This document shows positions 13,111 to 39,216 of a stretch of DNA of 45,739 nt, in pieces; the first letter of the stretch is position 1, and each line of letters starts with the position of its first letter. The stretch lies in the IMG/VR virus record IMGVR_UViG_3300031539_000074, positions 1 through 45,739 of that record; one strand, written 5' to 3'. This stretch comes from a virus. The translations under genes and the position numbers were made by a program. The notes beneath the pieces are model-generated. The model was not told the DNA's origin. It searched no databases and saw only the letters and a list, made by a program, of their open reading frames with translations.

Positions 13111-15176
13111 TATGCAACCTTCATTTTTCTAAGATAAACAGCTTTTTCAATCGCATCCGCTACTTGCTGCGGGTCGAGTTCTCTGTTTTGATTTATTACT
13201 GTCACATTGATATTCCCAACCGAATAATCATTGCTTGTCATTTTACTCAAAGGAATAACCTTGCCAGATGTATAGGGCTGAAAGAACTCCGGTTCCCGTT
13301 CATTCACACGATAGAGACCGCCCGCCATAACCGGGCCGCCGGTTGCACGTTTTTCGAGAAATGGAAACATACTTTTGATAGCTATCCCCGCACCCTTTAC
13401 GAATGTCCCACCAGTTATAAGACTAAACAAACCACCCATCGCAGAATAAACAGCCATTTGTTCCATCATATTTTTAAACATACGAGTAATATTATCAAAT
13501 GTATTGCCCGCCTGTGTCTGAGCATTATAGAGCATTGATCCCCATGTCTGAGCAAAAGATGCGACACGATCTTCCATGAACTTAATTTGTACCTTTGATT
13601 GTTCTTCGTCTACTGCGCCAAGTTTCATTGCTAAAATTTGCGCTGCCAAAATACGCCGTTCATCATGCTCTTCTATTAATCCGAATTCAGCATCAAAATG
13701 GAATTTCAGGAGTTCTTTCTGTGTGTCGTATCCCTCGGTTGCTTGTTCTATCATAAGTTCACGGGATTCAATCCATAATGATCGGCGTTCCTTTTCATAC
13801 GATTCGCTTTCTTTGATATTATTTTTTAAAATGTCTTGGTCAATTTCAAAAGGAAGTTTAATTTCTATCCCCTCAAATGGAAGCTCAGTAACTTTAGCTT
13901 CTTTCGATGATCTCGTTTTTATATCTTCTATAAAGGGATATAATATTTCAGCCTTTGGTGTGGTTATATTAGGCATATTAACTATCTTATCAATTCCCGA
14001 TACCAAAGGTGTTCCGTATTCCTTTCTTGCAAGAAGGCCGTACTTCGGGCCAAACTGGAAATCATCAGGCAACCCCAGTTTCTTTCTTAATTCAGCGGCG
14101 TCCTCATTGCTTTTTTCTGCAATATCCGTAATGAATTTATCGGAACTCAAATAGGAAAGACCCCCCAATGCCAGCATTCCCTTTTTCCCGGTAAAAACAG
14201 CAGCGATTACTCCGTATTCTTTTACCCAACCCGGCAGCGAATTAAAGCCTTCAATGGCTGTTCCAAGTGTATTGCCCAATGTTTTTACAATAGGTAACAA
14301 ATCATTAAAGATATTTTTTGCATTGCCCAAACTGCCGACTATATTATCGGAAATATTTTGTGCAAAATCTTCAAATTTCCCCGACTTTTTCATTTCTTCG
14401 ATTTTACTGATAACTCCATCAACTTCTTTTTTTATCCAATCCATAACACCGGAATTCATAACATCAGTCCGAAACTGGAACCATGCATCACTAAGCATCG
14501 ATGTTTTGCCCTTCCATGTTTCGGCAAGTTTATCTGTAGCTCCCCTAAACTGGCTGTCAGCTTTTTGCCATTCATCCATCATCTTTTTGCGGGTTTCTTC
14601 TGCGCTGTAAGAGACGCCAGCTTGGAATCCCATCATTGCAAGAACACCACGCTCACGGAACATATCAGCACTTGCCGCTCCTGCCGAATACATTCTAATG
14701 ACTTGGCTTGTAGTGTCCTGAACTGAAAGTCCGGTCGTTGCCGCAAGGTCTCCTATGAGTGGCATCCATTTAGTCACTTCATTTACGCCGCCCCTCATGA
14801 CACCAGCAAGGTTTGTCGCAGAACCCATGATTTGATCATAGGTGTGAGGTACTTTTGAGGCATACTTCGCCATTTCTTCGAACATGCGGTTGCCTTCATT
14901 TTGAGACCGTAAGAGTACCCCTAACCGGGTTTGGTATTGCTCTGCATTATTGGCCGCTTCCATAAAACTATTTTTTAATTTATTGAGCAGATACATGGAA
15001 CCAGCACCAGCCATAAGAGAATTGAGTTTACCTAAACCTGAGCTTATTTTAGATAAACCCTTTTCGGCCTGACCACCGGCTTTCTCGGTATCCCTGAGTT
15101 CTTTATTGATTGTACGAATGTTTTTAACTGCGCCTTTTTCGTCAATCGTAAATTGTACAACAATTCCTTGAGGCAT
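13110..15176 (-). CDS. Tail tape measure protein
   Basis: 688 residues. The start KGAVKNIRTINKELRDTEKAG and the following helical, Ala/Gly-rich region are typical of tape measure proteins that set tail length. A hydrophobic stretch occurs near residues 580-620 (MMEQMAVYSAMGGLFSLI), followed by the common C-terminal signature GLYRVNEREPEFFQP. At about 1.5 angstrom per residue it predicts a tail near 100 nm. It sits just after the tail assembly chaperones, as in lambda-like phages. Confidence 0.9.
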   Translation of the reverse strand: MPQGIVVQFTIDEKGAVKNIRTINKELRDTEKAGGQAEKGLSKISSGLGKLNSLMAGAGSMYLLNKLKNSFMEAANNAEQYQTRLGVLLRSQNEGNRMFEEMAKYASKVPHTYDQIMGSATNLAGVMRGGVNEVTKWMPLIGDLAATTGLSVQDTTSQVIRMYSAGAASADMFRERGVLAMMGFQAGVSYSAEETRKKMMDEWQKADSQFRGATDKLAETWKGKTSMLSDAWFQFRTDVMNSGVMDWIKKEVDGVISKIEEMKKSGKFEDFAQNISDNIVGSLGNAKNIFNDLLPIVKTLGNTLGTAIEGFNSLPGWVKEYGVIAAVFTGKKGMLALGGLSYLSSDKFITDIAEKSNEDAAELRKKLGLPDDFQFGPKYGLLARKEYGTPLVSGIDKIVNMPNITTPKAEILYPFIEDIKTRSSKEAKVTELPFEGIEIKLPFEIDQDILKNNIKESESYEKERRSLWIESRELMIEQATEGYDTQKELLKFHFDAEFGLIEEHDERRILAAQILAMKLGAVDEEQSKVQIKFMEDRVASFAQTWGSMLYNAQTQAGNTFDNITRMFKNMMEQMAVYSAMGGLFSLITGGTFVKGAGIAIKSMFPFLEKRATGGPVMAGGLYRVNEREPEFFQPYTSGKVIPLSKMTSNDYSVGNINVTVINQNRELDPQQVADAIEKAVYLRKMKVA

Positions 15177-15545
15177 TATGGTTTCTCGCTGATAAAGCGT
15201 TTAGTGTGATCGTGTATCGCAAGCAAGTACTCAAAAAACGTCTCTTTGTCGTCAACCTCGTAATCCTCGTAATTCATAACAAATTCCAATTTGCTCAAAG
15301 TCGGATACCCGTTCATGTCCGAGCCGGAGAGATGTATCGCTTTCCGATAGATAAGCAAGGCAATGAAAAAATCATTATTCCATGCCGGCGTTGCATTCCC
15401 CTGTAATTCAATACATCCATTTCCAGGGATAGCACAGTATGGGTAGCCTTTGCACCCGCTGCACTTGAATGGTGTCCAGTTCCAGACGATAGCCTCGTTA
15501 AGACATTTATCAAGGTCAATTCTCCTGTTTGTCTGTAGTATCGGG
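15176..15545 (-). CDS. Tail assembly chaperone, frameshifted C-terminal part (T-like)
   Basis: This frame carries a protein-like segment: VWNWTPFKCSGC, YPYC, then a helical tail ending SEKP, with its stop overlapping the tape measure ATG (TAATG). There is no usable start until far inside it. It is in the +1 frame relative to the chaperone gene 15516-15911 and overlaps that gene's end. This is the lambda G/GT arrangement, where ribosomal frameshifting fuses the second domain to a fraction of chaperones. A candidate slip site is GCA-CCC-GAT (CCC at 15545-15543), where +1 movement gives CCG-ATA in this frame. The exact site is inferred. Confidence 0.6.
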
Positions 15546-15911
15546 TGCTGAGTCTGTCGAAGTATCGCCGTCCTTATTTTCGGTTGTGGCTTCGACTCCG
15601 GTAGGTTCGAAGTGTTCCATAAACTCAATAATATCATTTTCGTCAAACACATCAGATTTGAGAACAAGAGCATCACGTATCCCGGAAGTAAATGCGATTT
15701 CATTGCCTTTTTCATCAAGCAGATTATCCCATCCTATGAGTGCGAACCTGAAAAGCGAAACCATTAAAGCGCCGTAGTCATATTCCCTCGACAGCGTTGC
15801 ATTGAGTTTCACACGTTTCATAACTGCATCGTCAAGATCGAAATAAAACACCGTGCCATCACGCTCGATAGTAAAGGGCTTCTGTTTTTCGCATTTGAAA
15901 GTTATTGGCAT
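15516..15911 (-). CDS. Tail assembly chaperone (G-like)
   Basis: 131 residues between the major tail protein and tape measure genes, the position of lambda gpG-type chaperones that hold the tape measure before tail polymerisation. The body is small and acidic (KNGREYDYG-like core, GWDNLLDEKG), with a low-complexity Thr/Asp tail (TENKDGDTSTD) where frameshifts usually occur. The product in the overlapping frame, 15176-15545, is the likely extension. Confidence 0.75.
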   Translation of the reverse strand: MPITFKCEKQKPFTIERDGTVFYFDLDDAVMKRVKLNATLSREYDYGALMVSLFRFALIGWDNLLDEKGNEIAFTSGIRDALVLKSDVFDENDIIEFMEHFEPTGVEATTENKDGDTSTDSAPDTTDKQEN

Positions 15912-36942: not shown

Positions 36943-38075
36943 TATAAAAACCTTATCCATTCTTTGATTCTCGTGCCTATCGCCTGTACAACAGGTACAC
37001 TCACGGCGTTACCTATCATCTTGTATCTCTGTGTGTCGGATATTTCTTTTACCTCTCCATCGAACATACCGTATTTAGTCCATCCATGTTTTATAATAAA
37101 CTCAACACGCAATATAGGTGTATTCAGTATTTGCTTTGGAATGTATCCAATTATGGCATTTATTACAGACAAGAACAAGATTGTCAATTTCTGTTCTGGT
37201 TTCTCTGTGTTCAAATGGTTTAACATGGTGGACTTCAAATGTTTTTTGAGTGTGATTAAATCTTTCTCCGCAAACTGAGCAAGTTGCATTATCTCTTTTC
37301 CATACATCCTTACGAGCCTGTTTCCATTCTTTTGATGTGTCAAACAATGCTCTTTCTGATGTAATGCCGCCTTTCCAGAATGGATTATTCTCTCCGCTAT
37401 TTGCTTTATAGAAACAATCAGGAGAGCAATATTCTCTACTTGCATAAGCTGGTGATACACGTTTTTGTTTTCCACACAACTTACATGCAATAATAATTTT
37501 CCTTGACTGTGTATTTCTGCTAAGTTTTCCTCGCAGTATATACGCACATCCGGTTGAGCATGTTTGTTTGTTGGTAGATTGCTTATACTTAAACTCTGTC
37601 CCACAAATAACACATTTTCTTGTGCGCTGTCTTTTTCTGCATTCCCAACAGGTTTTTGCGACCTGTGATTTTTCTCTTCCGCACTCGCATTTATCTTTGC
37701 TTGGTCTAAGCATATTTCAAATAATATCCTTTCGTTAATTTCGGGAAATCCTTGTAAGCGTTCCCATTCAATAGGTGTTAATTGTCTTATTATCCCGTCT
37801 TCTTGTAATACCAATTCATTAAGCCAACCGTATGATGAGCGTAGACAGAGAATATTTTTTATTCCGCCTTTATTGAATCCATGCGGTCTTGTAATAACAT
37901 AAGTGCCATTCCTTTGTGACCCATATCCACGAGCCGTACAGCAGACCGAAAAAGCCTTTGTATCCAGCCGGTTTGTCGGGGGGATAGGAAATATTTTCGG
38001 TCTGGATTTTCCTCTAAAATATCGCTTAGTGTTTGTCGCCATCTTCCCACCTCTTGGATATATATTTTTGTCCAA
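36942..38075 (-). CDS. C5-cytosine DNA methyltransferase, C-terminal part, carrying HNH insert 2
   Basis: From about 37983 downward this frame is methyltransferase: TNRLDTKAFSVCCTARGYG, LTPIEWERLQGFPE (motif IX region), then, after an insertion, GWTKYGMFDGEVKEISDTQRYKMIGNAVSVPVV (motif X). The part upstream of 37983, including the first ATG, is a shadow of the other frame. It joins 37859-39109 by a -1 shift at a six-C tract (37978-37983). Between GFPE and GWT lies about 630 bp that holds an HNH gene in another frame (37102-37713), yet this frame stays open throughout. Confidence 0.75.
   Translation of the reverse strand: MDKNIYPRGGKMATNTKRYFRGKSRPKIFPIPPTNRLDTKAFSVCCTARGYGSQRNGTYVITRPHGFNKGGIKNILCLRSSYGWLNELVLQEDGIIRQLTPIEWERLQGFPEINERILFEICLDQAKINASAEEKNHRSQKPVGNAEKDSAQENVLFVGQSLSISNLPTNKHAQPDVRIYCEENLAEIHSQGKLLLHVSCVENKNVYHQLMQVENIALLIVSIKQIAERIIHSGKAALHQKEHCLTHQKNGNRLVRMYGKEIMQLAQFAEKDLITLKKHLKSTMLNHLNTEKPEQKLTILFLSVINAIIGYIPKQILNTPILRVEFIIKHGWTKYGMFDGEVKEISDTQRYKMIGNAVSVPVVQAIGTRIKEWIRFL
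37102..37713 (-). CDS. HNH homing endonuclease 2, nested out of frame in the methyltransferase gene
   Basis: 203 residues. Five Cys pairs in the first 130 residues (CECG, CWEC, CVICG, CKLCG) form zinc fingers. GENNPFWKGG is a NUMOD3-type DNA-binding motif, and the C-terminal CSVCGERF, VHHVKPFEH and LVCNKCHNWIH form the HNH nuclease core. It interrupts the conserved GFP-D-GWT coding site, typical of homing endonucleases that target conserved gene segments. Its only ribosome site is a weak GAAAGGAT. Confidence 0.8.
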   Translation of the reverse strand: MLRPSKDKCECGREKSQVAKTCWECRKRQRTRKCVICGTEFKYKQSTNKQTCSTGCAYILRGKLSRNTQSRKIIIACKLCGKQKRVSPAYASREYCSPDCFYKANSGENNPFWKGGITSERALFDTSKEWKQARKDVWKRDNATCSVCGERFNHTQKTFEVHHVKPFEHRETRTEIDNLVLVCNKCHNWIHSKANTEYTYIAC

Positions 38076-39109
38076 TTTCTACCATCTCCGAGGGAGTAAA
38101 AAAGTTTCCCTTTATAGAATTGCACCGATAACAACAAAGTGCCAAATTCCCCTTTTCGTATCCTTTCTGAGAATTCATTCTGTCTATCGTCAAACGTGCA
38201 GTCCTCCGGTTGTATGAATCTGAATCTATAGGAAGACGTGCTTCCTCTATCCCACAATAGCAACATTTCCGTGGTTGGGATTTGTACCACATTATAAAGT
38301 CTTCCTGAGTTATCGTTACCAGAAGCGCACGAGACGATTGTTTCAGCCTCAGATAAGCCCTCTTTTCCGAATTGTCGTATTTCCTCTGTCTCTCTTTCGA
38401 TTTCCGGGGATGCTTTTTGCTCCACGCTCTTTGATATTCGTTTGAACAATTCCTGCACCATCTTGTAAGATTGCCCTTGAACCTTTTGTCTTTCAAAAAA
38501 TGCTTTAAAGACTCTGGATAATTCTTCTGACACTTCGTACACTTTCTCATACTGTACCTCCCTATGAATGTATTTATCAGGTATTATAGGGAAAATACTT
38601 TTGAATGGCAAGTCTTTTCTGATTCCGATAATGTATATCCGCTCTCTATTTTGGGGGAGAAACCCGCCTGTATTAAGAACTTGCCATTGACAGTCATACC
38701 CAATGTCGGTGAACAGTCTAATTGCTTCGTAGAAGTCGTAACCTCCATTAACCGAAAACAATCCTGGCACGTTCTCAGCAATGAAATATTTGGGCTTTTG
38801 AGCCCCAATGATTCGTACTGCCTCAGTAAGCAGATTGCTTCGTGTACCGTCTCGATGTCCTTTGCGTTTTCCAGCAATTGAATTATCTTGACAAGGCCAT
38901 CCGAAAGTGATAATGTCTGTGTTGGGCAGTTCGGAAGTTTTAATTTTAGTTGCGTCACCGTAATTCCTCATGTCGAAGTAGTGATATTCATGTACTGCCG
39001 ATGCGTATTTATCTATCTCGGCGTGCCATATCGTTTTACATAATCCGGACAGTTCTAATCCCAGACCGAAACCCTCTATTCCCGAAAACAAATTGCCGCA
39101 TGTCATCAT
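37859..39109 (-). CDS. C5-cytosine DNA methyltransferase, N-terminal part, carrying HNH insert 1
   Basis: 416 residues as an open frame from ATG 39109, which overlaps the stop of a small membrane gene (TAATG). Motifs: NLFSGIEGFG (I, SAM binding, residues 6-15), GWPCQDNS (IV, catalytic Cys 73), AENVPGLF (VI), and QNRERIYIIG (VIII, 153-162). After IIPDKYIH (near 182) about 510 bp are inserted that encode HNH 1 in another frame. Host sequence resumes with TLSDILEENPDRKYFLSP and then runs into the wrong frame at a six-C tract. The enzyme would methylate phage or host DNA against restriction. Confidence 0.8.
   Translation of the reverse strand: MMTCGNLFSGIEGFGLGLELSGLCKTIWHAEIDKYASAVHEYHYFDMRNYGDATKIKTSELPNTDIITFGWPCQDNSIAGKRKGHRDGTRSNLLTEAVRIIGAQKPKYFIAENVPGLFSVNGGYDFYEAIRLFTDIGYDCQWQVLNTGGFLPQNRERIYIIGIRKDLPFKSIFPIIPDKYIHREVQYEKVYEVSEELSRVFKAFFERQKVQGQSYKMVQELFKRISKSVEQKASPEIERETEEIRQFGKEGLSEAETIVSCASGNDNSGRLYNVVQIPTTEMLLLWDRGSTSSYRFRFIQPEDCTFDDRQNEFSERIRKGEFGTLLLSVQFYKGKLFYSLGDGRNWTKIYIQEVGRWRQTLSDILEENPDRKYFLSPRQTGWIQRLFRSAVRLVDMGHKGMALMLLQDRMDSIKAE
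38026..38550 (-). CDS. HNH homing endonuclease 1, nested out of frame in the methyltransferase gene
   Basis: 174 residues, with AGGGAGG five bases before the ATG, so it is translated on its own. The N-terminus has a Cys4 finger (CTKCQKNYP, CRNC). The nuclease core is CCYCGIEE, then LTIDRMNSQKGYEKGNLALCC and CNSIKGN. The gene lies wholly inside the methyltransferase reading frame, in a different frame, and its stop overlaps resumed host sequence. The host frame contains no stop across the insert. Confidence 0.85.
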   Translation of the reverse strand: MRKCTKCQKNYPESLKHFLKDKRFKGNLTRWCRNCSNEYQRAWSKKHPRKSKERQRKYDNSEKRAYLRLKQSSRALLVTITQEDFIMWYKSQPRKCCYCGIEEARLPIDSDSYNRRTARLTIDRMNSQKGYEKGNLALCCYRCNSIKGNFFTPSEMVEIGQKYISKRWEDGDKH

Positions 39110-39216
39110 TAGAATAACCTTATCACAGCGGAAATCACCAGTGCATCGAATATCAGGCAGACAATAAGAGTTAATATCAGGCATCGAAGCCCGGTTATGT
39201 CAAATTCATCTTTCAT
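39109..39216 (-). CDS. 35-residue membrane peptide coupled to the methyltransferase
   Basis: A short gene, MKDEFDITGLRC followed by a single hydrophobic span (LILTLIVCLIFDALVISAVI). Its stop overlaps the methyltransferase ATG (TAATG). The ribosome site is modest (AAAGAGAAA). It may mainly serve to couple translation. No homologue is recognised. Confidence 0.45.
   Translation of the reverse strand: MKDEFDITGLRCLILTLIVCLIFDALVISAVIRLF

Follow-up and report, generated by a model that had tools for sequence, protein, structure and literature searches.

How can a complete nuclease gene reside within a DNA methyltransferase gene whose own reading frame stays open across it? The question is raised by a 45.7 kb phage record in IMG/VR (45,739 nucleotides, analysed as a whole and termed here the window), in which a C5 cytosine methyltransferase gene (PF00145, Pfam) on the minus strand is broken up twice by HNH genes in other frames. 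These insertions, insert 1 with HNH1 and insert 2 with HNH2, are delineated in Table 1 together with the methylase segments that they separate. The explanation judged probable here is that insert 1 is a homing gene, tolerated because the host methylase is translated straight through it. According to this model, a homing-type mobile element made of almost nothing but an endonuclease VII-like HNH gene would have entered a phage C5 DNA methyltransferase gene past motif VIII and ahead of the target-recognition region. HNH1 would be produced by internal initiation at its own Shine-Dalgarno sequence, and ribosomes engaged on the methylase would read through insert 1 in another frame, yielding a methylase with about 200 extra residues, probably retained in the protein as a loop. 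Host-frame stops would have been removed by selection, the sequence of the loop itself not being detectably preserved.

Table 1. Features of the interrupted methylase locus in the window and of the HNH_3 genes nested in other methylases.
Feature	Positions	Strand	Basis
C5 methylase N-terminal part, motifs I-VIII (FSGIEGF..PCQ..ENV..QNRERIYIIG), frame m1	38624..39130	-	PF00145 E 3e-49; alignment with empty relatives L001-L003, L084
Methylase N-terminal ORF, 441 aa, holding the HNH1 ORF in another frame	37859-39184	-	
Insert 1, 602 nt by comparison with the empty site, no stop in host frame m1	38022..38623	-	DNA comparison with empty methylases; stop counts
Leader at the 5' end of insert 1, IRKDLPFKSIFPIIPDKYIH in the host frame	38551..38623	-	Alignment with L001
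Shine-Dalgarno AGGGAGG, 6 nt before the HNH1 ATG	38557..38563	-	Sequence
HNH1 (174 aa), HNH endonuclease of endonuclease VII type; host frame +2 relative to HNH1	38026..38550	-	PHROG 1035 E 3e-24
Methylase middle part after insert 1 (YFRGKSRPKIFPI..AFSVCCTARGYGSQRNGTYV..LTPIEWERLQGFPE), frame m0	37740..38021	-	L003/L084 homology
Insert 2, about 654 nt (divisible by three), no stop in host frame m0	37086..37739	-	Empty relatives (GFPD/GWT)
HNH2, HNH with Cys pairs, 203 aa; host frame +1 relative to HNH2	37102..37713	-	PF01844 E 1e-10
Methylase C-terminal end (GWTKYGMFDG..SDTQRYKMIGNAVSVPVV), motif X, frame m0	36945..37085	-	PF00145 positions 297-323
HNH_3 nested in C5 methylase, host frame open	L021 3606-4226; Constella (MH399772) 61759-62376		

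A sequence-only reading of the locus had proposed a complete HNH gene with its own ribosome site in a frame other than that of the methylase, and this is borne out by the PHROG 1035 match and by the AGGGAGG preceding the HNH1 ATG. HNH1 also matches PHROGs 3322 and 3118 (endonuclease VII / HNH families); Pfam gave no match. Its Zn-binding cysteine pairs (C4 C7 C32 C35 C96 C99 C140 C143) are conserved, an HNH-type core is present, and relatives include L063 (38% identity) and proteins of Shewanella phage 1/41 and Enterobacter phage phiT5282EW. HNH1 is a putative active nuclease, and mobility of the element is suggested by its nuclease family and by analogy. A single-sequence search of IMG/VR with HNH1 gave no confirmed match, an alignment query recovered free-standing relatives only (L063 being the best) and found no in-methylase relative, and a DNA search of phages with the whole region gave no match.

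Insert-free methyltransferases, by which that reading had proposed to fix the borders, do exist (L001-L003 and L084, in which a GGA codon is followed directly by CAT after motif VIII), and they move the borders it had drawn. The insert is not about 510 bp and a multiple of three; it comprises a 73-nt leader, the HNH gene (525 of the 602 nt) and 4 nt. TLSDILE, previously taken as the point where the methylase resumes, was dropped, as it is the +1-frame shadow of host DNA that is read as GHFRGKPRPQVFPV in relatives. The window DNA encoding TLSDILEENPDRKYFLS matches the empty methylase L003 at 33 of 38 bases (z 22), and in empty methylases this DNA is read one frame over, as GHFRGKPRPQVFPV. In L003, the counterpart of this window DNA, ATTTTAGAGGAAAATCCAGACCG..TATTTCCTATC, is read as HFRGKPRPQVFPV within one continuous methylase ORF. 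As 602 cannot be divided by three, the methylase sequence continues in frame m0, shifted by one base; this change from m1 to m0 was absent from the earlier reading. Frame m1 leaves insert 1 into a shadow frame of 57 codons that ends with a stop at 37859, and the C-terminal half of the methylase, the middle part of which is matched by phage methylases at 36-39% identity, lies in m0. In m0, the conserved junction glycine is replaced by arginine, consistent with either a recent change of one base or an error in the sequence at this point. Either a base was missed in the sequence, or a frameshift operates, or full-length methylase translation is currently lost here.

At the other border of insert 1, IRKDLPFKSIFPIIPDKYIH can be read from the sequence as a divergent version of the host segment that now lies beyond the element, FRGKSRPKIFPI. 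It keeps the spacing G-x10-[VI]FPI found in GHLRGTRRPEVFPI of L001, and the 5' stretch of the insert with its flank aligns with L001 without gaps over 61 nt. Direct DNA comparison of the upstream and downstream stretches within the window gave no significant duplication. Two common motifs of C5 methylases, GHLRG..VFPI and DILEE..KYFLS, correspond to one DNA read in two frames (L003, L016, L021, L084; 38045-37960 in the window), and each is real protein in different C5 methylases, for example in L001 versus L024. This suggests that one methylase class may be of old frameshift origin.

Across insert 1, the host frame m1 contains 0 stops. With the HNH1 protein held fixed, synonymous codon shuffling predicts 13.8 +/- 2.3 stops in m1, and 0 of 5000 shuffles reach zero. 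An exact calculation for m1 across HNH1 gives 14.1-17.5 expected stops, the probability of finding none being 7e-9 with the codon usage of HNH1 itself or 5e-11 with that of the other genes of the window. The third frame, which serves as an internal control, holds 15 stops, as expected. In HNH1, 64 codons would give rise to a host stop if their third base were T. These have no T and 16 C at that position, in contrast to 46 T and 7 C in the remaining codons (Fisher 1.3e-10). Given the absence of stops against both nulls and this third-base bias, host-frame stops have been selected against in insert 1. The absence of stops noted in the sequence-only reading is therefore confirmed, and it lies far below chance (0 versus ~14-18).

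Insert 2 offers a family in which the same arrangement can be followed. HNH2 is unrelated to HNH1 and lies further on in the same methylase gene, whose host frame resumes in register after the insertion. It has 14 further distinct in-methylase copies, in other phages (IMG/VR) and one Bacteroidetes MAG; the 15 distinct copies, that of the window included, mostly share 45-75% amino-acid identity. All of the in-gene copies are found between C5 methylase motifs IX (ERLQG/T.P) and X (G[WY]T..RYK..GN). The scan of genome contigs for HNH2 gave one relevant match, and a Bacteroidetes-wide genome search yielded no further full-length HNH2. The host methylases are single ORFs of 432-892 aa, most of them with all C5 motifs; L023, cut by the contig end, and L026 are without the N-terminal part. 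It had been proposed that relatives with many stops in the host frame would reduce the openness to chance. In the HNH2 family, all 15 distinct full-length in-gene copies have 0 host-frame stops, against about 48 expected over 16 counted entries, whereas the free-standing relatives L044-L056 have 4-16 stops in the corresponding frame, as under the null. The third frame of the in-gene copies, with 16-33 stops, also agrees with the null. In each of the 91 HNH2 pairs compared, the nucleases are more similar to each other than their hosts are, and the two identities are correlated (0.85).

Fourfold sites of HNH2 at which a host stop cannot arise show no more conservation than those of plain methylase bodies. 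As these stop-neutral synonymous sites carry no extra conservation, openness alone, and not the inserted sequence, appears to be under selection, and the inserted residues would form a tolerated loop. An apparent excess of host-frame amino-acid constraint on HNH2 was rejected, as it came with the inclusion of the stop-avoidance codons and disappeared without them. A TATAAT-like hexamer, often TGnTATAAT, ends 6 nt before the ATG in most HNH2 copies; it is seen at 37720-37726 in the window and, 7-12 nt upstream of the HNH2 start codon, in copies such as those of L018, L020, L021 and L031. It is compatible with a possible internal promoter and a leaderless HNH2 message.

Nested nucleases of other families have been found as well. 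L021, from an IMG/VR phage, harbors a third one, HNH_3, at the motif VIII site, which is that of insert 1. Relatives of this element occur in isolated Omegavirus mycobacteriophages, where the locus is annotated inconsistently, as nested genes in Constella (104/105) and as split in Thibault; the annotators of Schatzie were "unable to determine intron boundaries". In L054, an endonuclease VII gene (388-924) lies within a helicase/N6-N4 methylase ORF, the host frame being +2, with 0 host-frame stops versus 6.2 expected (P 0.0004). ShiLan gp65, a nuclease of another family in a DPPY-type methylase, was examined directly and has 0 host-frame stops versus 2.3 expected. In uninterrupted methylases, the number of stops in alternate frames agrees with the null within error; the alternate-frame "DILEE" ORFs of empty methylases are also near it, those of L002, L016 and L073 being somewhat low. 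Free-standing HNH/endonuclease VII relatives, unlike the nested copies, show alternate-frame stops as chance predicts. From these cases it seems likely that, in addition to introns and inteins, there is a third general way of carrying a mobile nuclease gene inside a coding gene, the frame-transparent homing gene, unrelated nuclease families in several host enzymes each being kept stop-free in the phase of the host, with openness alone selected.

That the host frame is open across insert 1 by mere chance is scarcely credible: apart from the fact that some alternate frames are known to have few stops, nothing speaks for it, and it is rejected by the shuffle and exact tests with the probabilities given above, by the third-base bias, and by the related families and controls. 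Insert 1 is very unlikely to be a self-splicing intron or an unusual intein that is lost from the RNA or the protein, even if group I introns often carry HNH genes, the interrupted gene is a conserved one, and the Schatzie annotators suspected an intron in a related case. However, the Rfam search gave no intron at E<5 in the window region and none in 14 related loci, the Pfam hits include no protein-splicing (Hint) domain, and the host-frame ORFs match methylase only. Furthermore, the HNH gene takes up nearly the whole insert, and an intron would gain nothing from selection that keeps the host frame open. The published study of ShiLan (PMC11855218) came to the same conclusion.

A more serious possibility, if still a doubtful one, is that the element was once frame-transparent and that the methylase is now broken by a one-base register change, leaving the open frame as a relic. 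The end of m1 after its shadow frame, with the C-terminal half in m0, speaks for such a break, and the Omegavirus relatives of the HNH_3 element likewise have downstream frame breaks. The change could be located at the 3' junction of insert 1 or within 38075-37859. Yet both inserts are still stop-free in their host frames, so that any break would be recent, and an error of one base in sequencing or assembly is just as possible; a pattern scan for a near-identical contig or for length variants of the C6 run returned none. A programmed -1 frameshift at this run (about 37975) could instead join m1 to m0, the methylase then reading TLSDILEENPDRKYFLS. The run TCCCCCCG does allow a -1 slip into m0, and DILE..KYxLS is a genuine in-frame motif of other methylases, as in L024 and L057, but all close relatives (L001-L003, L084) use the other frame for the TLSDILEENPDRKYFLS DNA and TCCCCCCG is not a canonical slippery heptamer, making this mechanism unlikely. 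The idea that insert 1 is both of a mobile type and translated through, already put forward from the sequence, is supported by the selection on stops, the many related cases and the lack of intron or intein signatures.

The arrangement, called unusual in the sequence-only reading, has precedents. An out-of-frame HNH in a mycobacteriophage methylase, the ShiLan domain, was described by Arsenault, Gosselin and Gogarten in 2025, with a second hidden out-of-frame HNH in Pacc40 gp60 (PMC11855218), and a 2025 genome report adds another such case in Applejack (PMC12613952). HNH1 and HNH2 are new examples of this arrangement. In the parts of PMC11855218 consulted, no test of chance or selection was found, and the present stop-avoidance test is the first known to us to indicate that the openness of an element of this kind is not due to chance. 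Insert 1 may be said to work like the ShiLan type: it has empty relatives, an HNH gene filling most of the insert, and a stop-free host frame. An in-register exit is seen for insert 2 and not for insert 1 as sequenced (602 nt).

The likeness to ShiLan, as described in PMC11855218, extends to an HNH in another frame that fills an insertion in a phage DNA methylase, with no host-frame stop and neither intron nor intein, and to an insertion start resembling the host sequence just past the site, comparable to the leader of insert 1. In contrast, the ShiLan HNH is reported there in a DPPY-type (N6/N4) methylase, belongs to another family, and has a GTG start and no ribosome site; insert 1 combines a C5 methylase with an endonuclease VII-like HNH in the opposite phase, a clear Shine-Dalgarno sequence and a one-base fault at its exit. 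Pacc40 gp60, from the same paper, shares the out-of-frame HNH insertion, and its helicase and methylase host resembles L054; this host architecture differs from those of HNH1 and HNH2, and the likeness to them is one of arrangement. The HNH_3 genes of Omegavirus (cluster J), such as Constella gp104/gp105, resemble insert 1 in being nested at the motif VIII site of a C5 methylase with an open frame, but belong to a different nuclease family, and their relative phase is +1. HNH/endonuclease VII homing genes that are free-standing or encoded by group I introns share the nuclease family and presumed homing, but sit in spliced introns or between genes.

What was a curiosity of a few mycobacteriophages thereby becomes a testable general strategy, for which the isolated phages Constella, Thibault, KashFlow and ShiLan provide direct material. 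The stop-avoidance statistic needs no more than sequence to show present or recent translation of host genes through the element, and it could serve for genome searches. Gene callers will misread such loci as split genes, introns or pseudogenes.

Elsewhere in the window, two overlapping ORFs (15176-15911, minus strand) precede a tape-measure-like gene and are arranged like a frameshifted tail assembly chaperone pair. Repeat-rich coding sequence (E-P-x repeats) is present at both contig ends (209-562 and 45425-45736), perhaps a single gene of a circular genome that the contig ends have divided.
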